Positions 1 through 50,740 of a stretch of DNA of 64,000 bases are shown one piece after another. Position numbers and translations under genes: made by a program. Location of the stretch: assembly GCA_964019695.1 (NCBI GenBank), contig OZ026527.1:73557471-73621470 (forward strand). Direction: 5' to 3'. Within the stretch, counting starts at the first letter, position 1; each line of letters starts with the position of its first letter. The notes under the pieces were generated by a model, which was not told the origin of the DNA, made no database searches, and was given only the letters and a program-made list of their open reading frames with translations. Origin of the DNA: Loripinus fragilis (Eukaryota > Mollusca > Bivalvia > Lucinida > Lucinidae).

Positions 1-2650
1 CGGGGGAGAGAGTGAGGGATAGAGTGTGGGAGAGCGAGGGATAGAGAGAGTGTGGGAGAGCGAGGGATAGAGAGAGTGTGGGAGAGCGAGGGATAGAGAG
101 AGTGTGGGAGAGCGAGGGATAGAGAGAGTGTGGGAGAGTGAGGGATAGAGAGAGTGTGGGAGAGCGAGGGATAGAGAGTGTGGGAGAGCGAGGGATAGAG
201 AGTGTGGGAGAGCGAGGGATATAGAGAGAGTGGGAGAGCGAGGGATAGAGAGAGTGGGAGAGCGAGGGATAGAGAGAGTGGGAGAGTGAGGGAGAGAGAG
301 TGTGTGAGAGCGAGGGAGAGCGAAGGAGAGAGTGTGGGAGGGCGAGGGAGAGAGAGTGTGAGAGCGTGAGGCTGTGGGAGAGTGAGGGAGAAAGAGAGTG
401 TGGGAGAGCGTGAGGTTGTGGGAGAGAGTGTGGGAGAGCGAGAGTGTGTAAGAGAGAGTGTCTGTGTAGGAGAGAGAGGGTGTGTGGGAGAGACAGAGTG
501 TGGGAGAGACAGAGTGTGTGTGGGAGAGACAGAGTGTGGGAGAGACAGAGTGTGGGAGAGAGAGTGTGTGTGGGAGAGACAGAGTGTGGGAGAGACAGAG
601 TGTGGGAGAGCGAGGGAGAGAGAGAGTGTGGGAGAGCGTGAGGTTGTGGGAGAAACAGTGTGTGGGAGAGAGATTGTGGGAGAGCGAGGGAGATAGAGAG
701 TGTGGGAGAGTTTGAGGTTGTGGGGGAGCGAGAGAGTGTGATAGAGCGAGAAAGTGTGGGAGAGAGTGTGGGAAAGAGTGTGTGAGAGTGTTGGAGAGAT
801 GGGACAGAGAGTGTGCAGAGAGAGTGTGGGAGAGCGTGGAAGAGAGAGAGAGCATGGGAGAGTGTGGGAGAGTGATGGAGAGAGTGTGGGAGAGCGAGGG
901 AGAGAGAGAGTGTGGGAGAGCGAGAGAGAGAGTATGGGAGAGAGAGAGTTAGGATAGCTTGGGAGAGCGAGTGTGGGAGAGAGAGTGGGAGCGAGAGAGT
1001 TAGTGAGAGAGAGTGTGCGAGAGAGTGTGTGTAGGAGAGAGAGGGTGTGTGGGAGAGACAGAGAGTGTGTGGGAGAGAGAGAGTGTGTGTGGGAGGGAGA
1101 GTGTGGGAGAGAGTGTGTGAGAGAGGGGGAGAGTGTGTGGGAGAGTGAGTGGGAGAGTGTGTGTGTGTGGGAGAGTGGAAGAGAGTGTCTGGGAGAGAGT
1201 GGGAGAGAGAGAGAGTGTGGGAGAGAGTGGGAGAGAGTGTATGAGAGTGGGAGAGAGTGAGTGTGAGGTTGTGGGAGGGCGAGAGTGAGTGTGAGGTTGT
1301 GAGAGAGCGAGAGTGTGGGAGAGAGAGTGTGTGGGAGAAAGGGAGAGTGTGTGGGAGAGAGAGAGTATGGAGTGTGTGAGAGAGAGAGTGGGAGAGAGAG
1401 TGAGTGTTAGGTTGTGGGAGAGCAAGAGTGAGTGGGAGAGAGAGTGTGTGGGAGAGAGAGTGTGTGGGAGAGAGAGTGTGTGGGAGTGGGAGAGTGTGGG
1501 AGAGAGAGAGTGTGGGAGAGAGAATGTGTGTGGAAGAGAGTGTGTGGGAGAGAGCGTGAGAGAGCGAGAGAGTGGGGGAAGAGAGCGAGGGATAGAGTGT
1601 GGGAGAGCGAGGGATAGAGAGAGTGGGAGAGCGAGGGAGAGAGAGTGTGGGAGAGCGAGGGAGAGAGTGGGAGAGAGAGAGCGTGAGGCTGTGGGAGAGC
1701 GAGGGAGAAAGAGTGTGGGAGAGCGTGAGGTTGTGGGAGAGCGAGAGAGAGTGTGGGAGAGCGAGGAAGAGAGAGAGTGTGGGTGAGGTTGTGGGAGAGC
1801 GTGAGGTTGTGGGAGAGCGAGGGAGAGAGTGTGGGAGAGAGAGTGGGAGAGCGTGAGGTTGTGGGAGAGCGAGGGAGAGTGTGGGAGACCGTGAGGTTGT
1901 GGGAGAGAGAGTGTGGGAGAGAGAGTGTGGGAGAGAGAGTGTGGGAGAGCGAGGGAGAGAGAGAGTGGGAGAGCGTGAGGTTGTGGGAGAGTGTGTGGGA
2001 GAGCGAGGGATATAGAGAGTGTGGGAGAGTGTGAGGTTGTGGGAGAGCGAGAGAGTGTGATTGAGCGAGAAAGTGTGGGAGAGAGAGTGTTGGAAAGAGT
2101 GTGGGAGAGTGTGTGAAAGAGAGAGTGTTGGAGAGATGGGACAGAGTGTGCGGGAGAGAGTGTGGGAGAGCGTGGAAGAGAGAGAGCATGGGAGAGAGTG
2201 AGGGAGAGAGAGCGAGGGAGAGTGGGAGAGCGAGAGTGTGGGAGAGCGAGAGAGAGAGTGTGGGAGAGAGTTAGGATAGCTTGGGAGAGAGAGTGTGGGA
2301 GAGCTTTTGAGAGAGCGTGGGAGAGCTTTTGAGAGAGAGCGTGGGAGAGAGTGGGAGCGAGAGAGTGAGGGAGAAGAGTTAGTGAGAGAGAGTGTGGGAG
2401 AGAGTGTGTGAGAGGGTGTGTGAGAGAGTGTGTGTGGGAGAGAGATGGTGTGTGGGAGAGACAGTGTGTGGGAGAGAGAGTGTGTGTGGGAGAGAGACAG
2501 AGTGTGTGGGAGAGATATAGAGTGTGTGGGAGAGGGAGTGTGGGAGAGAGAGGGTGGGAGAGAGAGCGTGGGAGAGAGAGAGTTTGGGAGAGAGAGAGTT
2601 TGGGAGAGAGCGAGAGTGTGGGAGAGAGAGACCTTGGGAGAGCAAGAGCA
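1..2650. repeat. GA-rich minisatellite (purine on + strand)
   Basis: The whole stretch consists of variants of GTGGGAGAGCGAGGGAGAGA with insertions such as GTGAGGTTGTGGGAGAGC and GAGACAGAGTGTG. The + strand is almost free of C and T runs. The same array, reverse-complemented, lies at 49,190-50,740. A higher-order duplication is visible: about 715-1,090 repeats the order of blocks at about 2,035-2,430, including a GATGGGACAGAG block. The open frames here come from lack of stop codons in low-complexity DNA, not from coding. Confidence 0.95.
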
Positions 2651-3032
2651 GTGACAAAACTGCTCCATGCTTCTGTCTGGTCATTTTCTGTCACAACTTG
2701 TGAACAATAGTACCTAAATGTATGATGATAAGATAAAATTATATTAATAAAAGACTTACGTTTCCCCAAAAATCATCACATATTCCATATCGCAAAAATG
2801 GCTGCCAAGATTCGCGCACAACTTCAAAAACATCTCGCAAAATGCATGTGTGGCGGGTAAAATGAGCACAAGATCAATAGCCAATCAGACCTCGAATGCC
2901 CGACCAGCTGACCAAAGATTTGCCCAAGCAGAAATGAGCAAATGCTTTCAACAGTGAGACCAAAACTCAGGTCCCATGAAAACAGGCCCTCGCCATAGAT
3001 TAGCGTGGTATTTCCCGGCCAGCATCCCATAT
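2651..3032. other. Unique-looking arm DNA, no gene
   Basis: Ordinary non-repetitive sequence following the GA-rich array, mirrored at about 48,825-49,190 with few changes. A short frame on the minus strand (2,824-3,030) is preserved in the other arm over 68 codons, but it has no recognisable domain and lies in DNA that is conserved overall, so I do not call it a gene. Confidence 0.6.
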
Positions 3033-3100
3033 GGAGCCACTATGGGCCTGCAAGCGAAACGCCATCGAATGGCGTTTTGCTGGCGGGCCGATTAGTGGTC
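3033..3100. repeat. Hairpin element, about 68 bp
   Basis: A long self-complementary stretch: AAGCGAAACGCCAT and ATGGCGTTTTGCT face each other around a CGA loop, with outer arms pairing less well. A much more perfect relative lies at 54,593-54,660, and the mirror copy in the right arm is at about 48,757-48,826. It is a small dispersed hairpin family. Confidence 0.7.
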
Positions 3101-3206
3101 CGATTTTACGTGTTGACTGGGTTCATTATATGACATCATAGCCAAATACGTTGCGAAACAGCTGCGTGAAACCCTATATTTGCGACCTGGTAAAGTGTGA
3201 ACCCCA

Positions 3207-3222
3207 GGGGGGGGGGGGGGGG
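3207..3222 (+). repeat. Poly-G tract (16)
   Basis: An uninterrupted run of 16 G. The right arm has a shorter C run at about 48,640-48,651, so the two copies differ in length. Confidence 0.95.
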
Positions 3223-3654
3223 TTACTCTGATATTTCCATATAGGCTACATGTATACTTAGGCTCGAACCGTTTTTGAGGGCTCTAATTTTAAATATATT
3301 TTTAATGGTGAGGGGGGATCAGAAAAATGATATGGCGGGGTATGAAAATTTTTGTCTATATTTTGGGGAGGGGGAAAAACAAAAATTGTCCCGTTTTGGG
3401 GGGTCATTTCTATGCAATTTTGGGTCTTGTCTTAAGCTCAATGTACAAAATACAGAATGAAGATAGTTTGGGGGTTGCTAAAATTTCATTTTTATTTATC
3501 TATTTAGTTTTAAATTGAAAATGCGACAAGTTCGATGTGTTAATTCTTAAACCCTGCACGGATGGGAGTACGGGCTTCCCCCGCCCCTGGAGAATTACAA
3601 ATGGATTAGAAGTCCGATTCGAAGGCACTAGCCTACTCCCGTTCTATTGCAAAA

Positions 3655-3870
3655 AGCAAGCGAGTATAATCAGGAAATACCACGATCAGACACTGAATAC
3701 CATCCCACGGCACCATGAGGGAGAGCCACATAACATTTACATTAGCAAGACATCTGCAAGACAATAAAAGCAAAGCAACCAGCTCTGATAATTGCAAAAC
3801 TAGAATGGACACAGAAACAAAGACATAACCACCACAAACAATGGGAAGTACATTATTACAATAGATCAGC
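3655..3870 (+). repeat. Dispersed repeat family B, forward copy
   Basis: Recognised by GGAAATACCAC at the left, a middle block like GAGGGAGAGCCACA, and ATTGCAAAACTAGAATGGAC at the right. Related copies lie at 4,150-4,345 (reverse) and 36,165-36,345 (forward), with mirror copies at 40,475-40,675, 47,520-47,720 and 47,985-48,215. Length is about 200 bp. I see no coding or tRNA-like head, so the class is unknown. Confidence 0.7.
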
Positions 3871-4149
3871 AACAACAGAACCGCCGTCTTAGAACGGACA
3901 GCAGCCTAAGCCACCGGGGACTTAAAGGCATTTTACTGGTACCAAAGCACAAAACCTGTTAAGCTCGCATGGAAGATTCCTAACTATTGCAATTTTTTGT
4001 ATCATCATGGAGAAGCAATCAAATCAAATTAACATACAATGATGAAACAAAAAAGGCCTCACGACTCACAGATAGTCAGAGTTACAGAAAACCAAGTTGA
4101 GTCATGGTGGGCCCTGCTACAGATAAGCACCAGGCCGCGACTAACCAGA

Positions 4150-4345
4150 CGATTAAAGCTTTACGTTATGTTTTGTTGTGCACTACTGGTGTCCTTTCTA
4201 ATTTTGCAATCATTTTGAAGAAGAGAGAGCCATTTGGTTTTCTTTTCTGATTTGTCTTGTTACTGTGAATGTTCTGTGGCTCTTCCTCATGATGCTGTGG
4301 GTTCAGTGGTCTGCAGTGTATGATTGTGGTATTTCCCAATCTTTA
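4150..4345 (-). repeat. Dispersed repeat family B, reverse copy
   Basis: Reverse complement of the family: TTTGCAATCATTTTGAAGAAGAG, CTGTGGCTCTTCCTCATG and GATTGTGGTATTTCC correspond to the right, middle and left blocks of the 3,655-3,870 copy. The two copies face each other about 280 bp apart. Confidence 0.7.
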
Positions 4346-4843
4346 AAGCAAGATTATCAATCCGACTCGACCCGGACCAGCCGAAGAAAGTTTGGCTAAG
4401 GGAACAATGGGTTCTGCTCCGCCTACGCGAAACTGTTATACGCGTCATTAAAAACGTTAATACCAAAACCTGTAAAGGGGGCGATTTTAATTTTGTATTT
4501 TTTTATGGAGATGTTCATCGCTTCTCTTCCTATGGTGTAATCATTTTACAACATATTCGTTTTGCAAGAGTATGTTCATATGTTGATGACTTCAACAACA
4601 GAAACCAGTTTTTGACTTCTTAGTTATAGTCATGGCCCTTAGGGACAAAAAATAGGTCCCGTGCAAACTGTGTGCCAATTTATGGTGATCTATATCAAAA
4701 TCTTCAATGGGGTCGCCTTTAATTTGAAGGTGGTCACCCATTTCAAATCCGCGTCTAAGGCTAGTTATGACGTCATCAATATGGCGACCATAAATAGAAA
4801 TTGTTCATTAAAGCTATTAGACGGATGGCTGAGAATGGGTTTG

Positions 4844-4866
4844 CCCCCCCCCCCCCCCCCCCCCCC
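4844..4866 (+). repeat. Poly-C tract (23)
   Basis: A run of 23 C next to the first family A unit. The right-arm equivalent is a G run of about 12 at 46,991-47,002, so the tract differs in length between arms. Confidence 0.95.
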
Positions 4867-6130
4867 TAGGGAATTTTGCAGACATGTCCTATCTTGTAGA
4901 GAATTGAAAGCCGAGTCTTTTAAGAGATGTTTGCACTCTATGCTCCGGGGCGTTAGTCTGTAAGAGCCCGTAACATACGTTACTTAATCAAACTAAGAAA
5001 AGTAAATTGAAAGTTTGGGCTACAAATTAAAGACATTAAATATTTATTTTTTAAAATCATTACTATAGTCTGCATACTGGATATCTTAACTACGTATGAC
5101 AGCCATTTGAACAAAATTGCGGCTTCCTAAGGTGTCATATGCGTTACATAAATCAGATAACACATTAAAATTTGCAAGTGTGGCTAACAGCATTAACATT
5201 CACAATCTCTCTGTGTATTTTGCAAAATGTTTTTAACCCTCTCTGACTAGCTTATGCAATTGGCTAACAGAAAAATTAAAGTTTGTTTCCCTAGCTTAAA
5301 TATTTTTTCTGAAATAAGCAATTAAACAACTCTACCCCTACCCAGTCTTAAGGTGAGATGTTTGGTATTAAAACTAAAGTAAAAATAATTAAAAAATATT
5401 TGCAGTTGATGAATGTGTTTCATTGTTTGGGATTTATTTGCTTATATGAAAAGACTAATAAATCTGCAAGCTTGTTGCAATTTTTTTTAATATCAGAGGC
5501 TGTAACATATGTTACCTGATGTATTAAATTGGCAAGCTCATTCTCTTTACGTAAGATATGCCTAAAATGTTTAATCTCCTTGAGGGAATTTTGCAGACAT
5601 ATTCCTTCTTATGGTACAACTCGAGCTGCGTCGAATAAGGGATGTTTGCACTCTCTATGTTTGGGCGTTAGTCTGAAACAGCGTGTTACATGCGTTACTA
5701 TATCAAATAAAGGAAATGTAGTTTGAAAGTTTGAGCTAAAATTGTGAAAAAAAACTCGCAGCTGTTGGACAGCTAACATTGTTTAGGGATTTTAAACTGG
5801 CGCCTATGATAAAGACTTATAGATCTGCTAGTTGTCATCAAGTTTTAAAGATCAGAGAGCGTTATAAATGTTAGCGTGATGAGTAAAATCATCAAACAGT
5901 ATTTTGACATCAAGCTGAGTAAGGGCCTGCTCCATCCTAATCCCCTTTGGAATTCTGCAGACAAATTACATCTTATGTATCCATTCAATGTGCATTTAAT
6001 AAGAAATGTTTGCACTCTGTAAGTCAGGGCGTTAGCCTGTAACAGCTTGTTACATATGTTACTATATCAATTTGTGAATAAGAAGTTTGAATGTTTGAGC
6101 TACCAAAAGAAGACATTAAAATTATCTAAT
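4867..6130 (+). repeat. Family A, three forward units with palindromic motifs
   Basis: Three units begin near 4,867, 5,585 and 5,945 with GGGAATTTTGCAGACAT, then AAGAGATGTTTGCACTCT, GGGCGTTAGTCTG, and a 14-bp palindrome-like motif (4,970-4,983 GTAACATACGTTAC; 5,685-5,698 GTTACATGCGTTAC; 6,049-6,062 GTTACATATGTTAC). A further GTAACATATGTTAC at 5,502-5,515 sits between units. The units are clearly diverged from each other, much more than the two arms of the palindrome are, so this family is older than the inverted duplication. No coding potential seen. Confidence 0.8.
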
Positions 6131-6395
6131 AAATTGACATTCTTATAGTCTTTATACTGGATGTCTTTACTACATATGGAAGCTTCTTAACATTAATACG
6201 GCTAACTGTGTTGATATGTGCGTTACATGAACCTAATTATGATTTAAAAGCTATAATTGTGGCTATCGTCATGTAGTTAAACAACTACTATGACTTGGTT
6301 TCAAACTGTTTTATTAGATTTTACAAACATATACTCAATTGATGAATAGGAAAAACCAAGTTTGCTTTTCTATCTTAAATATATTGTCTTATAGG

Positions 6396-6720
6396 TTGGT
6401 TGGTTGGTTTTGTTGCTTTACGTCCCAAGTCAACAGCTATGGTCATTGCGGGACGGTCAGTTCACCTAACCACACTTTTTCCTGGGCAGGCTTGAACAAG
6501 CGGTTAACCAGTAATTTGTGCACATACTTTCGCTTGTAACTGACAGCAACCCTTCTTGAATAAATCAGCGGAAGGGAGGAGAATGACCGCAGAAATTATT
6601 TCATGATCAATCTCCACGAAAGTACGGGACCGGGCTGGGATCGAACTCGCGACCCCTGGATCTGCAGTCAGACACGCATCTGTAGCCAGACACGTTACCG
6701 ACTGCGCTACGCGGCCCGGT
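6396..6720 (-). mobile_element. tRNA-derived SINE inserted in left arm
   Basis: A 325-bp insertion between two copies of TTGTCTTATAGG (6,384-6,395 and 6,721-6,732). The right arm has one copy of that target (45,460-45,471) and no insert, so this is a true insertion. The minus strand starts with a tRNA-like head: GGGCCGCGTAGCGCAGTCGG (A-box region) and GGTCGCGAGTTCGATCCC (B box). The distal end is a (GGTT)n-like tail. The element is a SINE transcribed leftwards by RNA polymerase III if active. Confidence 0.9.
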
Positions 6721-7302
6721 TTGTCTTATAGGAGCTAATACACAGCCCTACTCCCAGTTTTACAGAGAAGCGAATTTTGTTATTACCGTTTAAGTAAAAC
6801 ACATGAAAGCGATAACAGCGTGTGGATATTTTTCATTTTCTTAGTCTGTCTTGCTCATATATCTACAAGATGTCATTAAGTTAAAGATCAGGACAATTAA
6901 TGTGTACTTATAAGTCTTTGGTGCCAAAATACTAGAAATTATATTCATTTCTGATTATCAAGCCCATGGACTGGTGTTACAGATGTTATCAATGACCTTT
7001 TGGACACATTTCCTAATACTGTGCATATAATGCTAAATATAGAGCCACAAATAGAAAAGATAGTTTTACAATTTTACAAGAAAATACAATAAATGAAATG
7101 GTCCAAACTATTTCTCATTGATTTAACACTCATGTTAAACGTTTGTCGTTGTCTGCTTCTGTGGTAATCATTATTATCACACGCCTCCTTGCAACTAGTA
7201 GAATCATCACACAATATTTCAATCATTTACTGTTATTCAATTTTACCACTAGTCCACTCAAAATTGATGAGCCATTATCAACTTTCCAATTTTGCCATTT
7301 AT

Positions 7303-7667
7303 ATTTTGCCAATATTTGCCCTTTCATGCAAACCAAATATCTATGTGTCTTGATCCACATCTGAATTAAGGGTGAGGTTGGCGCCGTTAAACCGGTTTAA
7401 GCCCTCCAGTAAAATATTTTACTGACCATTCCAAGGCGGTACTTCTTTTGTGGATCTTTTATGTTTTTGTTCTGTCTTGTGTTTGCTATGTTTTGTGCGC
7501 GTCTGTTTATATGTGCTTTTTGGTCACCTGCTGGGAAAGGGCTGACCTCTTGGCTCTCGTTTGTGGTGTCTTCTGTGAGTTTGTCACTTTCCCATTGGTA
7601 TCCTGGGTCAGGTGTGGTACTTGATTGTATCGATTCCTGATCTTTGCACCATTACTTACTTTGGAAC
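7303..7667 (+). mobile_element. V-SINE-like insertion in left arm
   Basis: The right arm runs straight from CCATTTAT to GGCTTGGAAC (about 44,885-44,900), whereas the left arm has about 365 extra bases here. The insert contains GGCGCCGTTAAACCGG, CCATTCCAAGGCGGTAC, GTCACCTGCTGGGAAAGGGC and ends near GATTCCTGATCTTTGC. The same 3' block recurs at 62,185-62,360, and its last part at 19,327-19,350. This layout is like V-SINE families described in bivalves. A clean target duplication is not visible; a few bases of the target were altered. Confidence 0.7.
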
Positions 7668-8369
7668 ATTTGGAAACTGATATGAATTCCTAATAGTGGG
7701 CTCTTTGAGTATGTATTTCAAGTGATACTTTACAAGTAGGAGAAAGACTAAAGCTTTACAAGGAGAAAACTATGCCATTAAGAGTAATGAGAACCTGGAC
7801 TGATGTACCTTGGTATTTCTGTGCTAAAGAATCTTATCTTAGCTGGTTAACTTTTATAAATGTAGCCTTTCCATACATGCAACCCACATATTTTCATCTA
7901 GTAATGTCTCTGCACTTATTATCTTTCCCCAAGCATTCAAAAACTTATTTGAAGTCTTAGTACTTCTTAAGTGCTGAAACCGAGGTAACTCTTTCCCTTC
8001 AGATAAACGAACTAGATGTATCACAGCAGGTAAAGCAATGAAAGGCAGGATGAACAGAGCGCAAATTAGACCCTTTCAATTCAATGATTCACTAAGTCTC
8101 TAAGATAAGAGCGCTTATTAAAGGATGTAACATATATAACTCGCCATAATAAATGAGCAAGGGCACTGTCGTGACATCCTTTTTGATTACACAGTCAGAG
8201 GCAAGTGTTTTCAATTTCAGTGTTTTCAATGGATTATGAAATGAGGCACCTTATCAACTTGTTTACTCTGTATAAATCTTCCTTAAGAGCATAATATAGA
8301 ACTACTGGTTATCCCTTTCTACCTATAGTCCACTTTCCTTCTTTTGAATGCAACAGCTAATGATATGGC
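7668..8369. other. Arm DNA with no recognised gene
   Basis: Conserved with the right arm at about 44,185-44,880. A short frame at 7,772-7,960 (+) is matched at 44,588-44,776 (-) with four amino-acid changes, but it resembles no family I know. A family A motif (GTAACATATATAAC, 8,127-8,140) followed by CCATAATAAATGAGCAAGG marks another family A end. Confidence 0.5.
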
Positions 8370-8790
8370 TGCAAAAACTGAGAAATCATAGGTTTTACAT
8401 TATTTTAAGACATGCTTCAATGTACTGACATCAGAAAAAACCCAACTGCAAACATAATTGATGGCAATGTCCAACTTCATATTCTTTCTCTTATACCAGA
8501 TAACTTTCAAGGTGTAATAGAAATTGTTTTAGACGGTCTGCCAAAACCATCAAGAGTCAACATTGTAACTAAAGAAAACTTATAAATTTCTTTGGGCGCA
8601 GCAAATTACTATTGATCTAAGACCCGAGGACTTGAGCACCAAAAGACTGGATAGGTTCCATGGCAAATGATGCAAAAAAGCAGCCTATCAAATTTCTGTT
8701 CAACCAATGTCAGAAATCAGAGGTACACGGTAGAGACATAGATTTTTGCAAAATCTGCTTTTGAAGAATGCTAAAAGGATTCAAGTTTGG
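8370..8790 (+). pseudogene. Decayed coding relic, transposon-associated family (uncertain)
   Basis: In one frame there is a run of about 60 codons ending at 8,583 with the pattern IIDGN, then a spacer, then LDGLPKPSRVNIV. In another frame, about 50 codons later, there is IKFLFNQCQKSE followed by GRDIDF. The order and spacing resemble a large repeated protein family of cnidarians and molluscs that has IDG, a RVDIV-like strand, a DNK-like segment and an HEEADT motif. The EEADT-like part (TDAEAAAVRLLL) is present only in the right arm at about 43,725-43,760. Stops and frameshifts make this a dead copy. Family naming is from memory and weak. Confidence 0.35.
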
Positions 8791-8989
8791 CTGAGTCAAG
8801 TTGTTTGACGCTAGCACTGGCCACACATACAAAGAAAATTAAGTCTTTTGATGGCTAAAGAGGAGGATCACACGAAATGCTTATAAGTGATGTTTGTCAC
8901 AATTACCAATTTTAAAAAGTAATCTTAATTAATGTAACACATATTACACCATACAAAGCTGTATATTTGTTAAAAAATCTTTTCTTAAG

Positions 8990-9557
8990 TGTCGCAGGTC
9001 TGACCGCCTGTCTGGCCTGTCAGTTGCGTGAGTTCGAATACTTCAAGGAACAACTGCAATAAATATGTAATATATATATTTATTTGACAATAATATAGCT
9101 TTATTTACAATTATGACAAGGTGTGCTGTACTGTGCAACACAGTATACACAGACATATATGTAGGTATGTAAGTAAGTCATATAATAATATGAAGGGACA
9201 CGGTATATATAGTGTCAACACACTGCATATACCATGTAGTCCGCCATTTTATCAAATTCCTTATTTACAAAATACAAAATACTAATAGCAAAATATGATA
9301 CACGTAAATGATTTCAATGTAGTGAATAATGAAAACATACCTGCAATAAATATGTAGGTATAAATATGTAATATATATATTTATTTGACAATAATATAGC
9401 TTTATTTACAATTATGACAAGGTGTGCTGTACTGTGCAACACAGTATACACAGACATATATGTAGGTATGTAAGTAAGTAACGGTTAGTTATGTAGAAGA
9501 AATAACTACAGCTACCTGCCTAAAGTGTACAGTGTGCTAGTATCCCCCCATATGACA
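8990..9557 (-). repeat. 3' LTR of the gypsy element
   Basis: 568 bp, matching 24,721-25,390. It lacks about 130 bp present in the other LTR; the junction (GTGCTA to GTATCCC) has a CTA on each side in the longer copy, suggesting a microhomology deletion. Each LTR contains an internal direct duplication of about 120 bp beginning AATAAATATGTAATATATAT (9,058 and 9,361 here), which includes AATAAA polyadenylation-type signals on the minus strand. Confidence 0.95.
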
Positions 9558-9570
9558 TATTTCCCCTCTG
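9558..9570 (-). promoter_or_regulatory. Polypurine tract of the gypsy element
   Basis: On the minus strand CAGAGGGGAAATA abuts the start of the 3' LTR (TGTCATATGG). This is the expected place and composition for the plus-strand primer of reverse transcription, and it fixes the orientation of the element as minus, in agreement with pol. Confidence 0.8.
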
Positions 9571-10930
9571 AGGGAAATGGCGTCCCGACATTTATCAAAT
9601 TCCAAAACGGTATGTAATGAATATCTTATTATTACACGGAAAAAATTATCTGCCATCATCTGTAACCATACAATGGAAATCAAAAGATCTCATGATCAGT
9701 ACATAATGGAAACACCAAGCATACTACATCACCACAGAAGTCCATTATCAAGTCATTGAAATAGCCTTAATAACTCATTGATATAGCATACAGATAAGGC
9801 CATAAGAGCTACCACTTGCCAGCATCCAAGAGATTGGGCTGTATCCCTACCTGACGTGTAGCCAACAAGTGAAACCCCACAGCCAAACCTGACTACCATA
9901 TGCAATGAATCTAAATATTTGCTAAGACTCTGGTCGTTCAACACATTGACAACAAACTTCTGGGTGATTATACACTCTGAATTAAGTTGGATATATAATA
10001 TGAAAACAACAAAGAGCAAGTGACTATGATCAGGATATGCCACAGTCACATAGAGCTGAAATGCTTGATTTTCCTGTAATAATAAGAATAATGTGAACTT
10101 TATGAATGAATATTACTAGGGCAGATCATATATCATCTGATGGAATATGTACATGTAATGAAAGATGGTCCTGTAAAGAATGAAATTGAAACACAGCCTA
10201 GTAAACATGGTTCCTGAAAATAACAGATTGTTACTGTAAACAGCTACCCTGTGCCATATCTTAAAATAAACAGCTTCAATTTTGGAACATATAGCTGAAA
10301 AACTCATGCATGTTAATATCAATTTGCTGTGAGCCTACAGAACCAAAATATAATGAAATGAAACACGATCTCCCTGTATGAAAACAAGTACTGGCTCATG
10401 ATATCTAGTTAACCTATTAAGATGAAAAGCAAGTCCTGAATCATGATATCTAGAGTACCTGTAAGAATAAAATACAATAAAAATGACAAGTACTGACAAT
10501 ACAAATTTACAAGCATATGAAATAATATCATGTACTACTTCATAATGGATTCCTAAAATAAATATAATTGATTGAATCCAATTAATGGCGCTGCACATCC
10601 CTAATAAAAGGCCAATCATCTGAAAACTCAAGACAATACGATGAGTAATGCTCTAGAGTCAACTCACTTTTAAATGTCCTGAAATTAATAAAATGATAAT
10701 CCATCTTTGGCTTGCCAGTAAATCTGAAAATGTAATGTCGGTACAGTGAAGTTCTTGTAAGCACACTTCGGTAGAAAGCAGTGCCACTGAGAAGAAAAAA
10801 AAATCCATTAAAATCAGTAGGTAAAATCACTATCAACCAGATGTAACATCTGGTGGATATGTAACTGAAAATAAAACATATTTACAATTAAAAGTCACTT
10901 CCGCTGTACCACTGTTGAAGTGAACAAAAT
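9571..10930 (-). other. 3' region between pol and the 3' LTR, no gene recognised
   Basis: About 1.36 kb. Several minus-strand frames of 60-98 codons occur, but none shows an envelope-like signal peptide, furin site or transmembrane pattern that I would trust. CATGATATCTAG occurs twice (about 10,397 and 10,442). A decayed env or simple 3' UTR are both possible. Confidence 0.5.
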
Positions 10931-11296
10931 TCATGAAAGAACCCAGCCATCTGATCTCATCCACTGAGGCTTCTTTCGGGTTCGCTGAGGCCTTCTTGGC
11001 CTATCCTCGTCATCTGAAGATGACTGTGAAGGGGAACCAGAAGACTCACGAAGTTCCTGAGCTCTGGTTGGTGGCAGCGCTGTGTCTCGAGGAAGAACAC
11101 CAGGATCATCAGGACCACGAAGCATGGGTATCACATAACATTTACCTGTGCCATCCAATTCCAAAGGCGCTTCCTTGCCTGAAGAATCGTCATTCTCAGA
11201 CAACAAAGAGTCTTCAGAGTTGGTACGCACTGCAGAGTCACAAGGGTCAATTTGACTTATAGCCTGATCCTGCTGATCATCCCCAACCACAACCAA
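10931..11296 (-). pseudogene. C-terminal tail of gypsy pol, out of frame
   Basis: A frame of about 120 codons rich in acidic residues and serine, ending with RRPQRTRKKPQW and DGWVLS. Such basic tails, with arginines and a WM-type end, are common at the C-terminus of metazoan gypsy polyproteins. It follows the main pol frame directly (pol ends at 11,314) and is separated from it by a stop and a one-base frame change near 11,315, so it is the detached end of the same polyprotein. Confidence 0.7.
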
Positions 11297-11313
11297 ACTA
11301 TCAGGATCCTCCT

Positions 11314-14160
11314 CTAAATTAAATCCTCCTCATCCAATCGAGGAAGGCCAACAAAAGGAAGAAGCAAAGTGCGATGAAGCAGCCTTGTCTTCTTTGCTCT
11401 TGAATTGTCCCGACGAACCGCATAAACTGGGATATCATCGTTAGGTTGACTTATAACGATGTATGGATCATGCTCCCATTTGTCCCCTATCTTATGCTTG
11501 CCTTTAACACTAACCTTTTGGACAAGCACCAGATCTCCCGGCATCAAAACAGAGCTCCTAGCTGTTTCATCATAATGATGTTTATAAACAGCCCCTGTTT
11601 TCTTAGCTTGCTCTTGAGCCTTCCTGTACGCAAAGTTTAGGCATTGCCTTAGTTTGCGCACATACTCTGTAGACTTAGTCGATGACAGAGTATCAGGAGT
11701 TATCCCAAGAAAGGCATCAATTGCAAGCCTTGGATGCCGCCCAAACATAATGAAGTATGGGGAAAATCCAGTGCTGTTGTGAAAAGTGGCGTTATAGGCA
11801 TGCACAAGAGTTGGAACATGTGACTTCCAATCACTTTTCTGGTACTCTTCAAGGGTTCCCAGCATCTTAAGCAGGGTCTGGTTGAATCTTTCAACCTGGC
11901 CATTTCCCATTGGATGATAGGGTGTTGTCCTTGACTTCTCCACTCTGGCAATCTGGCAAAGTTCCTTAATAAGGTGTGACTCAAAGTTTTGACCTTGATC
12001 ACTGTGAATTCTTGCAGGAGAGCCATAGTGTATGATGAAGTCATCAAACAACACCCGGGCTGTTGTTTTAGCCGTTTGATTCCGTGTGGGAATGGTCTGA
12101 GCGTACCAAGAAAAGTGATCAGTTATTACAAGGATGTTCTCGTGACCACCTTTTGATCTTTCGAGCGAAAGGTAGTCCAAGCACACAATCTCCATAGGTG
12201 AACTTGATGTTATATTCACCAATTCAGCACTTTTTCCACCAACAGCCTTCCGTCTAATACATCGGTCACAGGCCCTTACACTTTCTTTGACAAAGGCATC
12301 CATTCCAGGCCAGAAGAACCTCTGTTTAAACAGAGATGTTGTTCTGTCCCTTCCTTGATGTCCAAGGTCATCGTGTAGAGCCTGAAAAACCTCTTGACGG
12401 AAAACTGGTGGAAGAACTAGTTGCTGAAAGTCCTGTTCATTGATTGAGACCTTACGGTGGAGAACACACTGACTGACAAAGAGTTTATCCCACTCTCTAA
12501 GGTAACGGGCATCAACAGCCTGGTCTAAGGTCTGCTTAGCTGGAGCCTTAAAACCTGTTTCTACCTTATTGAGTATAAACCCGATGCATGGATCACTCAG
12601 TTGGGCTTTTCTCCAATCCTTGAACGTAAGTCCGTAGGTCTGCAGTAGCTGTTCTGGAATCTCAAGTATCTGCTTAGATACATGAGCAGGGGAAACAGCC
12701 AAGCTTTCAAACAATGAACAGTCCTTATCCATTACTAACAGAGAATGCGATATGGCCTTAAGCATGTCGGGAAAGATGGTCTTTACTTCCTGGGGATGCT
12801 TGCAGCGTGAAAGCCCATCAGCATCCGCATTCTTCTTCCCACTCCTGTATTTGTAACCACATCTCTGTCCCGTGGCATCAAGCTTGGCAGTAGTGAGAAC
12901 ATAGGTGAGAGGGTTATTATCCGTTATCACCTCAAACTGACTACCATAAAGATAGTCATGAAGTTTCTCACATACTGCCCACTTCAATGCCAGGAACTCA
13001 AGCTTATGAGCTGGGTAATTCCTCTCTGAAGGTTTCAGACTTCTGCTAGCATAAGCAATCACTCTCTCCTTATTGTCCTGGTTCTGATAAAGAACTGCAC
13101 CCAGCCCATTAACTGAGGCATCAGTATGGACCTTGAAAGGGAGAGAGTAATCAGCATATGCAAGCACAGGAGGGTTAGACAATCTGTCAATAATGGTCTC
13201 AAAGCTTTCCTGCTGTACAGGTGTCCATTTGAATGGGACCCTTTTTGGGGGTTTCTTCTTTCTGGCTTTCGGGTTTGTCACTTGACCTACCAACAAGTCA
13301 TTAAGTGGTCTAACTATAGATGCAAAACCCTTAATGAACCTGCGATAGTAACCCGCAAAGCCAAGAAAGCGTCTAACCTCACGGACAGAATTTGGAACGG
13401 GCCAGTTTTGTATAGCATCAATCTTGTTCGGATCTGTGTGGATACCCGCTTCTGACACCACATGACCAAGGTACAAAACCTTACGGCGAAACAGCTTACA
13501 TTTGACAGGCTTCAGCTTAAGGTTATGGTCTTGCAGACGCGCAAAGACAGCTTGCAATCGCTCCAGATGCTCCTCAAAGGTGGTTGAAAAGATGATGATG
13601 TCATCAAGATAAATGAGACAATCTCTAAGATTGAGATCACCCATGCATCTTTCCATCAGCCTCTGAAAAGTCGCTGGAGCGTGACAAAGACCAAAAGGCA
13701 TTCTATTACATTCGTAGAATCCGAGTGAGCCTACTTGGAAGGCTGTCTTGGCTTTATCTGCTTCCTTAACTTCCACCTGCCAGTAGCCACTTTTCAGGTC
13801 CAATGTACTAAAATACTTTGCACCTGCAAGCAACTGCAAAGTATCATCGACTCTGGGGATGGCATATGCATCTTTTACAGTTCGCTGGTTAAGTTTCCTG
13901 TAATCTATGCAGAAACGGATTGAGCCATCCTTTTTCCGTGCAATTACCACATTGGAACTGAATGGGCTTTTGGAGGGTCTGATTGCTCCGGCCTCAATCA
14001 TCTCATTTAGGTGTTCCCTGACCTCCTGAATAAGAGCAGGTGGGATACGCCTATATGGATCTTTGAAAGGGTCCTCATTCTCCAGCTGGATTTCATGCTC
14101 TACTAAATTTGTACAGCCAAGGTCAGTAGGACCTTTAGAAAAGATATTCTGCCATTTGTT
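11314..14160 (-). pseudogene. pol: Gypsy pol: reverse transcriptase, RNase H, integrase
   Basis: The longest intact part begins at a Met at 14,001 (895 codons), but the frame continues upstream to about 14,150 with RT N-terminal sequence (PYRRIPP), so 14,001 is not the true start. From that Met: RT core with LDLKSGYWQV near 68-77 and the YLDD catalytic motif at 131-134; RNase H from about 290 (HTDAS) to 400; zinc-binding H543, H548, C578, C581; integrase DDE as D609, D668, E704; then a GPY/F-like module near DKWEHDPYIV. All catalytic residues are present. Compared with relatives, a dozen or so residues are missing between TGQR and KYRSGK at the end of RNase H, an apparent in-frame deletion. 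The upstream junction with protease is frameshifted and the C-terminus is cut by a stop. Confidence 0.93.
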
Positions 14161-15044: not shown

Positions 15045-15217
15045 ATTAGCTGTTTGCTTGCCTCTAGTTTGCCCAACAACAGAGGCACCTACTTGTTTAA
15101 AGTATCCTTCTTAGAGCTTTCAGTATCCTTCTTATTCCTATTAGCATTATCATTAGGATGCTCTTGCTGATTTGCTGTATTTGATCTCTGGTTGTTATTG
15201 TTATAATTAGGGTGACG

Positions 15218-16015: not shown

Positions 16016-16036
16016 GCCTTCTTCTTTTTCTAAAAG

Positions 16037-17634: not shown

Positions 17635-17689
17635 CTTGATATATAATATCTATCTAGTTCTAAAAGAAAATAACTGGCTTGTCAACAAA

Positions 17690-30247: not shown

Positions 30248-30249
30248 TT

Positions 30250-36164: not shown

Positions 36165-36345
36165 AAATACCACAATCACTTACCACAGACAACCCCATGG
36201 CACTGCGAGGAATAGCCACTCAACCATCACGAAACACCAGGAAGACAAATTAAGCAAAACAACCAGCTCTCTCTCTTCCCCACCAAGATGATTGCAATAC
36301 TAGAATGGACATAAAATAACGTACAACAAAACATAGAACAATTCG
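36165..36345 (+). repeat. Dispersed repeat family B, forward copy
   Basis: GGAAATACCACAATCAC, a middle GAGGAATAGCCACTC, and ATTGCAATACTAGAATGGAC. Same order as 3,655-3,870. Mirror at 40,475-40,675. Confidence 0.7.
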
Positions 36346-40675: not shown

Positions 40676-41224
40676 TTTAAATACTCACCAATGAATAAAC
40701 GCCTAAGATTTAGGCACCAGAGGCTAGATACTTACAGGAGAACATGTGAAATATATTCATTTTTTCCAGAAATGTCATCTCTTACATCAAGTTAATGTTC
40801 TTGTCCATTTATTATGCCATGCAACATATGTTATGGCCTTAAACAAGTTTCTTCGATGGTGTTCTTAAACCTGCAAAATCTATAGAATTCTTTATTATAT
40901 GAGCAAGACAATCCCAAATATGTAAGATACCCAGCAGCAGGAATGTGTTATATAAATTATTTACATAATACCTACCAGATTTGGCTCCTTAAAACTGGAT
41001 GTATGGGTTGTTTAATTGCCCATATAATACAATACATTTAAAGTAGAAATGCAAAAGGGTAATCTAATTAAAGTAATACTCATAACACAGTAGGTAGCTG
41101 TAATTTTGCTCCAAAGGCTTTTATATTTAGCTAAAGTAGCCAGCATACAGACTATATGAGTAATTTAAATAATCAGACAGTTTAAAGCCTTCTTTCTGTA
41201 GCTTAAATTTTTTAAGTTTCTTTT

Positions 41225-41400
41225 TTCTTAATTTAATAGACCTATGATAACATATGTAACAGGCTCTCAAAGACTAATACCCAGGCGTACAGAAATACCC
41301 AGGCGTACAGAAAGCAAAAATCTCTTAAAAGACACAGCCTGAAATTCCCTTTAAGATAGGATAAGTTTGCGAAATTCCCTAGTGGGGAGCAAAAACTCTA
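41225..41400 (-). repeat. Family A unit (mirror copy)
   Basis: Mirror of 35,335-35,520, with GATAACATATGTAAC near 41,246-41,260 and GATAAGTTTGCGAAATTCCC. Confidence 0.75.
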
Positions 41401-42034
41401 GCAGCCATCAGTCTTAAGGTGGGCCCCGAGAAATTTAAACTTTTGAAAATATTTATGCTGGAAAATGGAGGTTGGGTCTTGACCCCAACACCTTAAGATC
41501 TGGGCAAATGATACAAACAGGGAAATAAACATGCATCAATGCAGAATAAAATTCGTTGTGAAAAGAATCGAATCATACTAGTATTGTCTTGATATAAATG
41601 ATCACGAATCAATGTATTGTTCGTTCTGTTGATAGCGCAAATACCAACAGTTGGACAGTTAAGCTGCATATTGATGATTATTATGGGATATTTTATTATT
41701 AATTCTCAATTAGGCGATTCTAATGAACAACATAAGCATAAGTTTTACGAGAACAGACCTATTATGTGTTTTGGTTATCTTAAATACACACACCTTTTCT
41801 GGTCTACTGATAAGCTGGGTATTTATCATGTTTATGTTAAATATACGGTATTTTGCATGAAAATTATAGTTATCGAGAAATGATTTATTATCAAAGTCAC
41901 ATAAAACATTGACTTAACCATCATGTGTTTAAAATACATGATATTGTGTTAAAGAAATAATTTGTGTTGGTTTAATACGACTTTACCAATACAAACTATA
42001 TAGACTTTGAGCTAAAAAAGGTCCTGCTCCCCCC

Positions 42035-42200
42035 CCCCTAGGGAATTTTGCAGACATATCCTATCTTGAAGAAAATTTCAAGCCGCATCTTTTAAGAGAT
42101 GTTTGCACTCTGTGCTCCAGGGCGTTAGTCTCTGACAGCCTGTTACATATGTTACTGTAACAAACTAAGGAAAAAATCAAAATGAAAGTTTGAGCTACAG
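42035..42200 (+). repeat. Family A unit (mirror copy)
   Basis: GGGAATTTTGCAGACATATC, AAGAGATGTTTGCACTCTG, GGCGTTAGTCTCTGACAG and GTTACATATGTTAC (42,142-42,155). A second motif near 42,677-42,690 is followed by ATGGCATAATGAATGAGC. Confidence 0.8.
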
Positions 42201-43134
42201 AAAGAAGACATTAAACCATCTAATTATTCAAATTTCTTATGTAGTTTGCAAGCTGGATGCCTAAGCTACATAAAAGCAGCATTTTAAACAAAATAACAGC
42301 CTTCAATGGTGTTTTATGCGTAACATAGATTAAATTTCCCTTTGAAAGTTGAAATCATGACTAACATAATTCATTTTACAGACGATTTGTGCATTTTTAC
42401 AAGTGTTTTTAATCTTAGTTTAATAAAGTACTTATTTGACTAATAGAAAAAAACAAAGTTTGATTTTCTATCTCAAATACATTGTTTTATATGAGCTATT
42501 AAACAACCCTACCTCCAATTTTAAGTATCCAATTTTGGTATCTATTATTGAAGAAAAATATATGAAAATATTTGACGCTCGTGGATATCTTACATTTTTG
42601 GCACTTTCTTGCTAATGCAATAAAGAATCATACATTTGCAAGTTTGACATCAGGATCAGAGCACATATTAAAGTATTTAACGTATGTTACATGGCATAAT
42701 GAATGAGCTAGGAAATTTTCTTGGAAGTAAGGGATGATATTTCAGAAAAATACCGTATTTCACATGTTTTCCTATTAATCTCTAGCCTCTGGTGCCTTAG
42801 TCTTAGTAATTACAGTCATTGCTGATAACAAGCCCTTGGAATTGTGTTACCTATGTTATATATAACCTTTTTAATGACATATTTCCTAATGCCTATAATA
42901 TCAAAATATATAGACATATAGATAGAAAATAATAGTTCTCATTTAAATGACACAATTTAATAAATATTCCTATTAAATAAAATTATTCAAAAACAATCTT
43001 TATTCAAGTCACCCTCACAATGTCTATCATTGTGGCTGCTTCTATTGCAAAATAATCACCCATTTCATCACAACCAGTAGAATCATGGCATTGTATTATG
43101 ACTGCAAACTGAGCACAACCCTGTTCCTCTCCAC

Positions 43135-43300
43135 CCCTTTGGGAATTGTGCAGACATATCCTACCTTAAAGAACAATTCAAGCTGCATCAAATTAGAGAT
43201 GTTTGCACTCTATTAACTTGGGGGTTAGCCTGTAATGGTGTGATACGTATGTTACCATATCAATTTAAAAATAAATGAATTGAAAGTCTGAGAAACAGAA
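43135..43300 (+). repeat. Family A unit (mirror copy)
   Basis: GGGAATTGTGCAGACATATC, GATGTTTGCACTCTATT and GATACGTATGTTAC (43,242-43,255). Mirror of 25,500-25,635. Confidence 0.75.
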
Positions 43301-43574
43301 AGAAGACATAAAACTATCTATTTATTTGAATTATTCATGTAGTTTGCATGCTGAATACCTTTGATACTTAAGAAAAGATTTTTTAACAAATATACAGCTT
43401 CCTATGGTGTAATATGTGTTACATTAATTAAGATTACTTCTTAAAATTGGTAATTGTGACAAACATTACTTATAAGCATTTCGTGTGATCCTCCTCTTTA
43501 GCCATCAAAAGACTTAATTTTCTTTGTATGTGTGGCCAGTGCTAGCGTCAAAAAACTTGACTCAGCCAAACTTG

Positions 43575-44165: not shown

Positions 44166-45759
44166 CTCAGTTTTTGCAGCCATATCATTAGCTGTTGCAT
44201 TCAAAAGAAGGAAAGTGGACTATAGGTAGAATGGGATAACCAGTAGTTCTATATTATGCTCTTAAGGAAGATTTATACAGAGTAAACAAGTTGATAAGGT
44301 GCCTCATTTCATAATCCATTGAAAACACTGAAATTGAAAACACTTGCCTCTGACTGTGTAATCAAAAAGGATGTCACGACAGTGCCCTTGCTCATTTATT
44401 ATGGCGAGTTATATATGTTACATCCTTTAATAAGCGCTCTTATCTTAGAAACTTAGTGAATCATTGAATTGAAAGGGTCTAATTTGCGCTCTGTTCATCC
44501 TGCATTTCATTGCTTTACCTGCTGTGATACATCTAGTTCGTTTATCTGAAGGGAAAGAGTTACCTCGGTTTCAGCACTTAAGAAGTACTAAGACTTCAAA
44601 TAAGTTTTTGAATGCTTGGGGAAAGATAATAAGTGCAGAGACATTATTAGATGAAAATATGTGGGTTGCATGTTTGGAAAGGCTACATTTATAAAAGTTA
44701 ACCAGCTAAGATATGATTCTTTATCACAGAAATACCAAGGTACATCAGTCCAGGTTCTCATTGCTCTTAATGGCACAGTTTTCTCCTCGTAAAGCTTTAG
44801 TCTTTCTCCTACTTGTAAAGTATCACTTGAAATACATACTCAAAGAGCCCACTATTAGGAATTCATATCAGTTCCAAATGTTCCAAGCCATAAATGGCAA
44901 AATTGGAAAGTTGATAATGGCTCATCAATTTCGAGTGGACTGGTGGTAAAATTGAATAACAGTAAATGATTGAAATATTGTGTGATGATTCTACTAGTTG
45001 CAAGGAGGCGTGTGATAATAATGATTACCACAGAAGCAGACAACGACAAACGTTTAACATGAGTGTTAAATCGATGAGAAATAGTTTGGACCATTTCATT
45101 TATTGTATTTTCTTGTAAAAATGTAAAACTATCTTTTCTATTTGTGGCTCTATATTTAGCATTATATGCACAGTATTAGGAAATGTGTCCAAAAGGTCAT
45201 TGATAACATCTGTAACACCAGTCCATGGGCTTGATAATCAGAAAAGAATATAATTTCTAGTATTTTGGCACCAAAGACTTATAAGTACACATTAATTGTC
45301 CTGATCTTTAACTTAATGACATCTTGTAGATATATGAGCAAGACAGACTAAGAAAATGAAAAATATCCACACGCTGTAATCGCTTTCATGTGTTTTACTT
45401 AAACGGTAATAACAAAATTCGCTTCTCTGTAAAACTGGGAGAAGGGCTGTGTATTAGCTCCTATAAGACAATATATTTAAGATAGAAAAGCAAACTTGGT
45501 TTTTCCTATTCATCAATTGAGTATATGTTTGTAAAATCTAATAAAACAGTTTGAAACCAAGTCAAAGTAGTTGTTTAACTACATGACGATAGCCACAATT
45601 ATAGCTTTTAAATTATAATTAGGTTCATGTAACGCACATAACAACACAGTTAGCCATATTAATGTTAAGCAGCTTCCATATGTAGTTAAGACATCCAGTA
45701 TAAAGACTATAAGAATGTCAATTTATTAGATAATTTTAATGTCTTCTTTTGGTAGCTCA

Positions 45760-46995
45760 AACATTCAAATTTCTTATTCACAAATTGATATAGTAACATA
45801 TGTAACAAGCTGTTACAGGCTAACGCCCCGACTTACAAAGTGCAAACATTTCTTATTTAATGCACCTTGAATGGTTACATAAGATGTAATTTGTCTGCAG
45901 AATTCCAAAGGGGATTAGGATGGAGCAGGCCCTTACTCAGCTTGATGTCAAAATACTGTTTGATGATTTTACTCATCACGCTAACATTTGTAACGCTCTC
46001 TGATCTTTAAAACTTGATGACAACTAGCAGATCTATAAGTCTTTATCATAGGCGCCAGTTTAAAATCCCTAAACAATGTTAGCTGTCCAACAGCTGCGAG
46101 TTTTTTTCACAATTTTAGCTCAAACTTTCAAACTACATTTCCTTTATTTGATATAGTAACGCATGTAACACGCTGTTTCAGACTAACGCCCAAACATAGA
46201 GAGTGCAAACATCCCTTATTCGATGCAGCTCGAGTTGTACCATAAGAAGGAATATGTCTGCAAAATTCCCTCGAGGAGATTAAAACATTTTAGGCATATC
46301 TTACGTAAAGAGAATGAGCTTGCCAATTTAATACATCATGTAACATATGTTACAGGCTCTGATACTAAAAAAAATCGCAACAAACTTGCAGATTTATGAG
46401 TCTTTTCATATAAGCAAATAAATCCCAAACAATGAAACACATTCATCAACTGCAAATATTTTTTAACTATTTTTACTTTAGTTTTAATACCAAACATCTC
46501 ACCTTAAGACTGGGTAGGGGTAGGGTTGTTTAATTGCTTATTTCAGCAAAAAATATTTAAGCTAGGGAAACAAACTTTAATTTTTCTGTTAGCCAATTGC
46601 ATAAACTAGTCAGAGAGGGTTAAAAACATTTTGCAAAATACACAGAGAGATTGTAAATGTTAATGATGTTAGCCACACTTGCAAATTTTAATGGGTTATC
46701 TGATTTATGTAACGCATATGACACCTTAGGAAGCCGCAATTTTGTTCAAATGGCTGTCATACGTAGTTAAGATATTCAGTATGCAGACTATAGTAATGAT
46801 TTTAAAAAATAAATATTTAAATGTCTTTAATTTGTAGCCCAAACTTTCTATTTACTTTTCTTAGTTTGATTAAGTAACGTATGTTACGGGCTCTTACAGA
46901 CTAATGCCCCGGAGCACAGAGTGCAAACATCTCTTAAAAGACTCGGCTTTCAATTCTCTACAAGATAGGACATGTCTGCAAAATTCCCTAGGGGG
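45760..46995 (-). repeat. Family A, three reverse units (mirror copies)
   Basis: Mirrors 4,867-6,130. Motifs GTAACATATGTAAC (45,793-45,806), GTAACGCATGTAAC (46,156-46,169), GTAACATATGTTAC (46,340-46,353) and GTAACGTATGTTAC (46,874-46,887), three of them followed by GCAAACAT and by TGTCTGCA(G/A)AATTCC. Confidence 0.8.
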
Positions 46996-47519
46996 GGGGG
47001 GGTGCAAACCCATTCTCAGCCATCCGTCTAATAGCTTAAATGAACAATTTCTATTTATGGTCGCCATATTGATGACGTCATAACTAGCCTCAGACGCGGA
47101 TTTAAAATGGGTGACCACCTTCAAATTAAAGGCGACCCCATTGAAGATTTTGATATAGGTCACCATAAATCGGCACACAATTTGCACGGGACCTATTTTT
47201 TGTCCCTAAGGGTCCTGACTATAACTTAGAAGTCAAAAGCTGGTTTCTGTTGTTGAAGTCATCAACTTATGAACATACTCTTGCAAAACGAATATGTTGT
47301 AAAATGATTACACCATAGGAAGAGAAGCGATGAACATCTCTATAAAAAAAAATACAAAATTAAAATCGCCCCCTTTACAGGTTTTGGTATTAACGTTTAA
47401 AATGACGCGTATAACAGTTTCGCGTAGGCGGAGCAGAACCCATTGTTCCCTTAGCCAAACTTTCTTCGGCTTGTCCGGGTCAAGTCGGATTGATAATCTG
47501 GCTTTAAAGATTGGGAAAT

Positions 47520-48756: not shown

Positions 48757-48826
48757 GGACCACTAATCGGCCCGCCAGCAAAACCCCATTCGATTGCGTT
48801 TCGCTTGCAAGCCCATAGTGGCTCGA
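48757..48826. repeat. Hairpin element (mirror copy)
   Basis: ATCGGACCACTAATCGGCCC to GCCCATAGTGGCTCGA, the mirror of 3,033-3,100, with a few changes (AAAACCCCATTCGATTGCGTT at the loop). Confidence 0.7.
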
Positions 48827-49189
48827 CATGGGATGCTGGCTGGGAAATACCACGCTAATCTATGGCGAGGGCCTGTTTTCATGGGACCTGAGTTTTTGTC
48901 TCACTGTTGAAAGCATTTGCTCATTTCTGCTTGGGCAAATCTTTGGTCAGCTGGTCGGGCATTCGAGGTCTGATTGGCTATTGATCTTGTGCTCATTTTA
49001 CCCGCCACACATGCATTTTGCAAGATGTTTTTGAAGTTGTGCGCGAATCTTGGCAGCCATTTTTGCGATATGGAATATGTGATGATTTTTGGGGAAACGT
49101 AAGTCTTTTATTAATATAATTTTATCTTATGATCATACATTCAGGTACTATTGTTCACAAGTTGTGACAGAAAATGACCAGACAGAAGC

Positions 49190-50740
49190 ATGGAGCAGTT
49201 TTGTCACTGCTCTTGCTCTCCCACGCTCTCCCTCTCTCCCACGTTCTCGCTCTCTCCCAAGGTCTCTCTCTCTCTCTCCCACACTCTCGCTCTCTCCCAA
49301 ACTCTCTCTCTCCCACGCTCTCCCTCTCCCACACTCCCTCTCCCACACTCCCTCTCCCACACACTCCCTCTCCCACACACTCTATCTCTCTCCCACACAC
49401 TCTGTCTCTCTCCCACACACTGTCTCTCTCCCACACACTCTGTCTCTCCTACACACACTCTCTCTCTCCCCCACACACTCTCTCTCCCACACTCTGTCTC
49501 TCCAACACACACTCTCTCTCCCACACTCTGTCTCTCCCACACATTCTCTGTCTCTCCCACACACCCTCTCTCTCCCACACACACACTCTCTCTCACACTC
49601 TCTCCCACACTCTCTCACTCCCACTCTCTCTCTCAAAAGCTCTCCCACACTCTCAAAGCTCTCCCACACTCTCTCTCAAAAGCTCTCCTAACTCTCTCTC
49701 TCCCACACTCTCTCCCACTCTCTCCCTCGCTCTCCCACACTCTCTCTCTCCCTCGCTTTCTCTCCCTCGCTCTCCCACTTTCTCTCTCCCTCGCTTTCTC
49801 TCCCTTGCTCTCCCATGCTCTCTTTTCCACGCTCTCCCACACTCTCTCCCGCACACTCTCTCTCCCATCTCTCCAACACTCTCTCTTTCACACACTCTCT
49901 CCCACACACTTTTTCCCACACGCTCTCGCTCTCCCACACTTTCTCGCTCTCCCACACTCTCTCGCTCTCCCACAACCTCACGCTCTCCCACACTCTCTGT
50001 CCCTCGCTCTCCCACACTCTCTCTCCCTCACTCTCCCACACTCTCTCACCCACAACCTCACGCTCTCCCACACTCTCTCTCGCTCACCCACTCTCTCTCC
50101 TTCGCTCTCCCACACTCTCCCTCGCTCTCCCACAACCTCACCAACACTCTCTCCCAACCACGCTCTCCCACACTCTCTCGCTCTGCCACAACCTCACGCT
50201 CTCCCACACTCTCTCTCTCCCTCGCTCTCCCACACTCTCTCTTCCTCGCTCTCCCACACTCACTCACTCCCTCGCTCTCCCACAACCTCACGCACTCCCA
50301 CACTCTTTCTCCCTCGCTCTACCACAGCCTCACACTCTCCCACTCTCTCACGCTCCCACACTCTCTCTCCCTCGTTCCTCACTCTATCCCTCGCTCTCCC
50401 ACACTTCTCTATCCCTCGCTCTCCCACACTCTCTATCCCCCGCTCTCCCACACACTCTCTCCCACACTCTCTCACAACCTCACGCTCTCTCTCCAACACA
50501 CACTCGCTCTCCCACACACTCTCGCTCTCCCACAAACTCACACTCTCCCACACTCACTCTCCCACTCTCCCACACTCTCTCTCTCCCACACACTCTCTTC
50601 CACTCTCTCCCACACTCTCTCCCACACACACGCTCTCTCCCACACACTCTCTCTCCCACTCACTTTCTCTCCAACTCTTCCACACACTCTCTCCCACTCA
50701 CTCTCCCACAACCTCACACTCTCTCCCACACTCTCTCCCT
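49190..50740. repeat. CT-rich minisatellite (mirror of the left end)
   Basis: Blocks CTCTCCCACACTCTCTCTC, CCCACAACCTCACGCTCTC and CTATCCCTCGCTCTCCCAC in the reverse order of 1,260-2,640. Only one copy of the CCATCTCTCC-containing block is present (near 49,865), against two in the left array. Confidence 0.93.

Follow-up and report, generated by a model that had tools for sequence, protein, structure and literature searches.

The window analysed here is a stretch of 64,000 nucleotides from the lucinid bivalve Loripinus fragilis (assembly GCA_964019695.1, contig OZ026527.1, positions 73,557,471 to 73,621,470 of the forward strand). It contains no N bases and is largely occupied by a giant imperfect palindrome that turns near 38.4 kb. 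Such a palindrome, with halves matching in the same order, had been proposed from the letters alone (hereafter, the sequence-only reading), and a self-comparison of the window bears this out. Inverted matches are collinear along the whole palindrome (pieces of at least 200 bp, out of 697 rows; array-to-array rows were left out of another listing), and no inverted BLAST match at E <= 1e-10 was obtained in five random sequences drawn from a first-order Markov model of 2.65-49.2 kb. The left-arm pieces 2650-6395, 6721-7318, 7661-8999, 25391-25796, 26841-28031, 28397-28441 and 34970-38167 pair with the right arm from 49206 down to 38663. In the core arms, counted without the insertions and the outer arrays, 240 of 10,306 aligned positions are mismatched (121 transitions and 119 transversions), which corresponds to 2.33% divergence, or 97.7% identity. 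With 28 additional gap events, this figure replaces the approximately 3% of substitutions previously counted by hand over 200 bp; an earlier alignment that extended into the centre had given 294 of 10,359 (2.84%).

The arms had been described as about 12-13 kb long, within a span of 1260-50740. They are indeed inverted, but they are unequal (at least 13.6 kb on the right and at least 38.2 kb on the left) because the left arm carries approximately 25 kb of insertions. The former span stops within the outer arrays; the match extends from base 3 of the window, where the window truncates the left arm, to 52,305. Nor is the centre almost devoid of a spacer, as had been thought, because 495 bp separate the two arm edges. 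Two highly similar inverted arms (97.7% over 10,306 positions) around a short spacer have the form of a quasi-palindrome, or inverted segmental duplication.

Features of the palindrome and of the sequences that interrupt it (window coordinates)
Feature	Start	End	Strand	Remarks
Left arm	1	38167	+	About 25 kb of it is inserted sequence; extends past the left edge of the window
Purine-rich tandem array, outer left arm	1	2650	+	
SINE-like insertion, 325 bp	6396	6720		tRNA-like end by eye; 12-bp target-site duplication; right-arm empty site with 1 mismatch in 45
Left-arm-only stretch, about 356 bp	7302	7657		No target-site duplication found by exact-match script
Gypsy-type LTR retrotransposon	8990	25390	-	Target-site duplication TAAG(T); right-arm site empty
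Insertion, 1,044 bp	25797	26840		Terminal inverted repeats; TA duplication; right-arm site empty
MITE-like insertion, 366 bp	28032	28397		Terminal inverted repeats; TTAA duplication; right-arm site empty
Insertion, 6,541 bp	28442	34982		Direct repeats of 213 bp at its ends, 98.6% identical; AAACTT on both sides by eye
About 110 bp without counterpart in the right arm	35652	35762		Carried by older repeat copies B, D and E
Central spacer, 495 bp	38168	38662		Without arm-type matching
Central hairpin	38271	38498		Stems 38271-38365 and 38395-38498; 73.8% self-complementary over its length
Right arm	38663	52305	-	Reverse complement of the left arm; ends where the array alignment reaches the left edge of the window
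Older 0.84-kb repeat copies, right arm	40682	47035		Both orientations, with mirror-image counterparts in the left arm; 61-75% identical
Right-arm-only stretch, about 177 bp	43603	43779		Sole right-arm extra above 20 bp
Pyrimidine-rich tandem array, outer right arm	49206	52305	-	Partner of 1-2650

The spacer holds a hairpin that is separate from the arms and more diverged than they are (73.8% identity). Its centre is at 38,384.5, and the midpoint of the arm edges is at 38,415. The DNA folding z-score is -9.9 for the hairpin region (38261-38505) and -6.2 for the whole spacer, and the hairpin score of the spacer itself is 49, compared with a maximum of 30 among 500 Markov-random versions. When 495-bp segments were scored at 25-bp steps from 2.7 to 49 kb, the top score among 1,852 segments was 53 at 38,373, followed by 52 for an AT microsatellite (32.6 kb) and 49 for an inverted repeat in the 6.5-kb insertion (29.8 kb). 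Few hairpins of the window are as strong as the one at which the palindrome turns. By eye, a 9-bp direct repeat (AGCTTTTGA) is visible close to each end of the spacer and might be a target-site duplication; no matching terminal repeats were seen.

The left arm is interrupted by insertions of approximately 325, 356, 16,401, 1,044, 366 and 6,541 bp. Four of them (6396-6720, 8990-25390, 25797-26840 and 28032-28397) are flanked by exact target-site duplications and face an empty site in the right arm, which is identical over 45 bp in three cases and has one mismatch in the remaining case. The pogo-, piggyBac-, MITE- (miniature inverted-repeat transposable element) and SINE- (short interspersed nuclear element) like names of the small insertions are tentative and follow from their ends and duplications rather than from a database. 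For the 6.5-kb insertion, the exact-match script found no target-site duplication, and AAACTT was recognized on both sides by eye. Cut wider to take in the flanks, its terminal repeats show 10 mismatches in 227 positions. This insertion also contains an inverted repeat at 29449-30248 and two copies of a 190-bp tandem repeat at 33930-34309 with 99% matches. One of its open reading frames (ORFs), on the minus strand at 29817-30119, has no Pfam match and includes a stretch resembling the end of a Tc1/mariner transposase. The approximately 110 bp at 35652-35762 were probably deleted from the right arm, because the older repeat copies carry them.

The largest insertion is a Gypsy-type long terminal repeat (LTR) retrotransposon with ORFs at 11314-16036 for gag-like, protease-like, reverse transcriptase, RNase H and integrase domains. 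Its two LTRs differ at 7 of 534 positions (1.3%), the last few columns being uncertain. The closest relatives of its pol, among the best 120 listed of 7,960 above threshold, are up to 96% identical, and 8 of these 120 are named as Candidatus Thiodiazotropha metagenome-assembled genomes (59-78% identical). The latter may represent host DNA in the symbiont bins of lucinid clams; the lucinid Ctena decussata carries a symbiont of this type (PMC12485333). A scan of genome contigs with the Gypsy protein confirmed no relative.

Arm matching carries on into the outer arrays, where the real alignment scores 1,087 versus 637-723 in three block-shuffled controls and reaches the left edge of the window opposite 52,305. 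The stretch 49206-54267 has a strong strand asymmetry, with a pyrimidine-rich array to approximately 53,030 that is followed by purine-rich sequence to approximately 54.2 kb.

Nested in the arms are older repeats with a unit of 0.84 kb. In the right arm, this unit lies on the minus strand at 40682-41417, on the plus strand at 41999-42830 and, as a partial copy, at 43127-43472, and again on the minus strand at 44974-45967, 46114-46278 and 46294-47035. Such units form older imperfect palindromes centred at approximately 41.7 kb (61-74%) and 44.5 kb (65%). A model of the repeat, seeded from the right arm, found 22 matches in the window, all within the two arms and none in 54-64 kb; a few of them end up to about 20 bases inside an insertion. 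No Pfam match at E <= 0.01 was obtained among 10 ORFs (seven from the arms, one from an insertion and two from the flanks), the seven arm ORFs examined being 83-106 amino acids long. The mismatches between the old repeat copies show no clear three-base periodicity, and neither this nor the Pfam result for these ORFs supports coding repeat units.

These older copies also served as an outgroup for polarising the changes between the arms. Of the changes in three copies (2,160 sites), 26 are assigned to the left arm and 24 to the right, with 7 unresolved, so that the two arms appear to evolve alike in the copies compared. The LTRs of the Gypsy-type element (1.3%) and the terminal repeats of the 6.5-kb insertion (98.6% identical) differ less than the arms, as would be expected if the insertions postdate the duplication. 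The arm mismatches are clustered, with a variance-to-mean ratio of 1.78 that none of 2,000 permutations reached (permutation mean 0.97). This clustering could be mutational or a trace of short conversion tracts. A longest gap of 314 between mismatches is within expectation (p = 0.13), and the longest identical run is only 303 bp, so that there is no support for long tracts having recently undergone gene conversion between the arms.

We consider it probable that the palindrome is a true fold-back inverted duplication that arose near the central hairpin and has been decaying by mutation and transposon insertion. In this scheme, a break or stalled fork beside the hairpin would have allowed one strand to fold back, and the folded strand, with the hairpin as a seed, would have copied the adjoining sequence of at least 13.6 kb in reverse. 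The 495-bp loop would have remained as a spacer, presumably in single copy. Both arms would then have drifted to 2.33%, with transposon insertions breaking the symmetry, and the lost symmetry would mean less cruciform extrusion, which may have stabilized the locus. We infer that the molecule exists in the animal. The palindrome has no visible function, and we take it to be a neutral relic.

Known fold-back systems, here and below as described in the relevant passages of the cited papers, resemble the locus in part. Under the fold-back model, the original and the inverted copy should be separated by a spacer of normal copy number (PMC3907307), and in human fold-back inverted duplications a spacer was present at 21 of 21 sequenced junctions, with lengths of 766-70,466 bp (Hermetz et al. 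2014, PMC3907307). The same paper mentions work in hamster cells in which inverted repeats of 229 bp served to stimulate inverted duplication. As in the human cases, the inverted copy in the window adjoins the original and a spacer lies at the turn; the arm edges are sharp. The human fold-backs, however, are large terminal rearrangements, many with deletions, whereas the visible right arm here is 13.6 kb. In yeast single-stranded DNA, the instability of inverted repeats was suppressed only by heterology above 25% (Ait Saada et al. 2023, PMC10164571). Short inverted repeats need not be perfect to pair, and the present hairpin, 26% diverged over its whole length, is at this border; it may have been better matched in the past than it is today. 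The yeast system differs in its engineered Alu repeats and dicentric products (PMC10164571).

Several observations weigh against the fold-back duplication. The lead of the central hairpin in the segment scan is one point, and BLAST bits rank it third (best match per centre, among those of at least 30 columns), with 138 bits after 296 for 29449-30248 and 159 for the AT microsatellite. The sequences that flank the hairpin within the spacer, 38168-38270 (103 bp) and 38499-38662 (164 bp), have no match to each other. If the fold-back had been primed exactly at the hairpin, these flanks would be symmetric, so either the switch point was elsewhere or the centre was later rearranged. The spacer is also shorter than all 21 human ones (PMC3907307), and the insertions with target-site duplications number five in the left arm (the fifth by eye) and none in the right. 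Two further points, the level of arm divergence and the left arm without a visible outer end within the window, also favour an assembly artefact. In that case, the locus would be present once in each parental haplotype, and a chimeric read or an error in the assembly graph would have joined its two versions head to head to give the arms. We regard this artefact as less likely than the fold-back duplication but as its most serious competitor. The divergence of 2.33% is near the published heterozygosity of two lucinids (1.99% in Anodontia alba, PMC13033139; 1.69% in Indoaustriella scarlatoi, PMC11830101), although both published values are below it. The presence and absence of transposable elements between the arms looks allelic, and a chimera with ends 495 bp apart would likewise leave a single-copy spacer. 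Many haplotypic duplications and misjoins were corrected in one lucinid assembly (PMC12485333). Haplotypic duplications also resemble the palindrome in having two copies at allele-like divergence, but the passages in question (PMC12485333, PMC13033139) describe no inverted join within a contig that turns on a hairpin. Random ligation would place the turn at so strong a hairpin only by coincidence, and the assembler would need a read that physically links the haplotypes in inverted order. Should the join nevertheless be the explanation, the locus would be a clear example of the false palindromes that heterozygous bivalve genomes can produce and a warning for such finds. An artefact of another kind, a foldback read from the same molecule (missed adapter), is disfavoured, because it would leave identical arms at the centre. 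The first arm mismatch is the 13th base from the spacer, and five mismatches fall in the first 75 bp. These mismatches so near the spacer, the spacer itself, the hairpin at the turn and the similar rates of change in the two arms speak for a real duplication. A fold-back duplication thus appears likelier than the haplotype join, and the suggestion of the sequence-only reading that this may be a true inverted duplication in a bivalve is upheld to that degree; the bivalve source fits, and the possible haplotype join qualifies it.

A real inverted duplication could also have had arms that were different from birth, if the template of the second arm was the other haplotype, on the homologous chromosome. 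Such a copy would explain the allele-level divergence and the one-sided insertions together, but no positive evidence points to it and it is inseparable here from ordinary ageing; we consider it improbable. More improbable still is a single large mobile element with the arms as its giant terminal inverted repeats. Arms in inverted orientation on either side of a spacer would suit such an element, but the entire spacer is just 495 bp, the seven arm ORFs have no Pfam match, and most of the arm sequence is made up of local old repeats and a simple array. Palindromes of mammalian sex chromosomes likewise have large inverted arms, but gene conversion keeps these more than 99% identical (PMC8981503). 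The present arms, 97.7% identical and interrupted by transposable elements, fall short of that level.

If the fold-back duplication is real, the locus would be a layered record of a germline inverted duplication that transposon insertions are making asymmetric. It would retain the suspected seed hairpin and contain older inverted duplications, and the step from a fold-back to a stable duplication would be readable at one locus. The older inverted copies of the 0.84-kb unit indicate either that the locus folded back before or that a dispersed repeat landed repeatedly, and their presence in each arm hints at recurrent inverted duplication. It is a speculative extension, and in our view a doubtful one, that the locus is a recurrent fold-back hotspot. 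It would contain nested inverted duplications from at least two periods, and every newly formed hairpin would have helped to seed the following event. Palindromes would then beget palindromes in a germline genome, the 0.84-kb pairs first and the 97.7% duplication at approximately 38.4 kb afterwards. A limited literature search found no title on a large nuclear palindrome in a bivalve, although one may well have been published.

Beyond the palindrome, a tRNA-like match was found on the minus strand at 60890-60961 (Rfam, 30.4 bits with a cut-off of 29, E 0.024), which was not called by ARAGORN. Two short hairpins of 68 bp at 54593-54660 and 59363-59430 have equal scores and 88% self-complementarity, and they are possibly copies of one small element.

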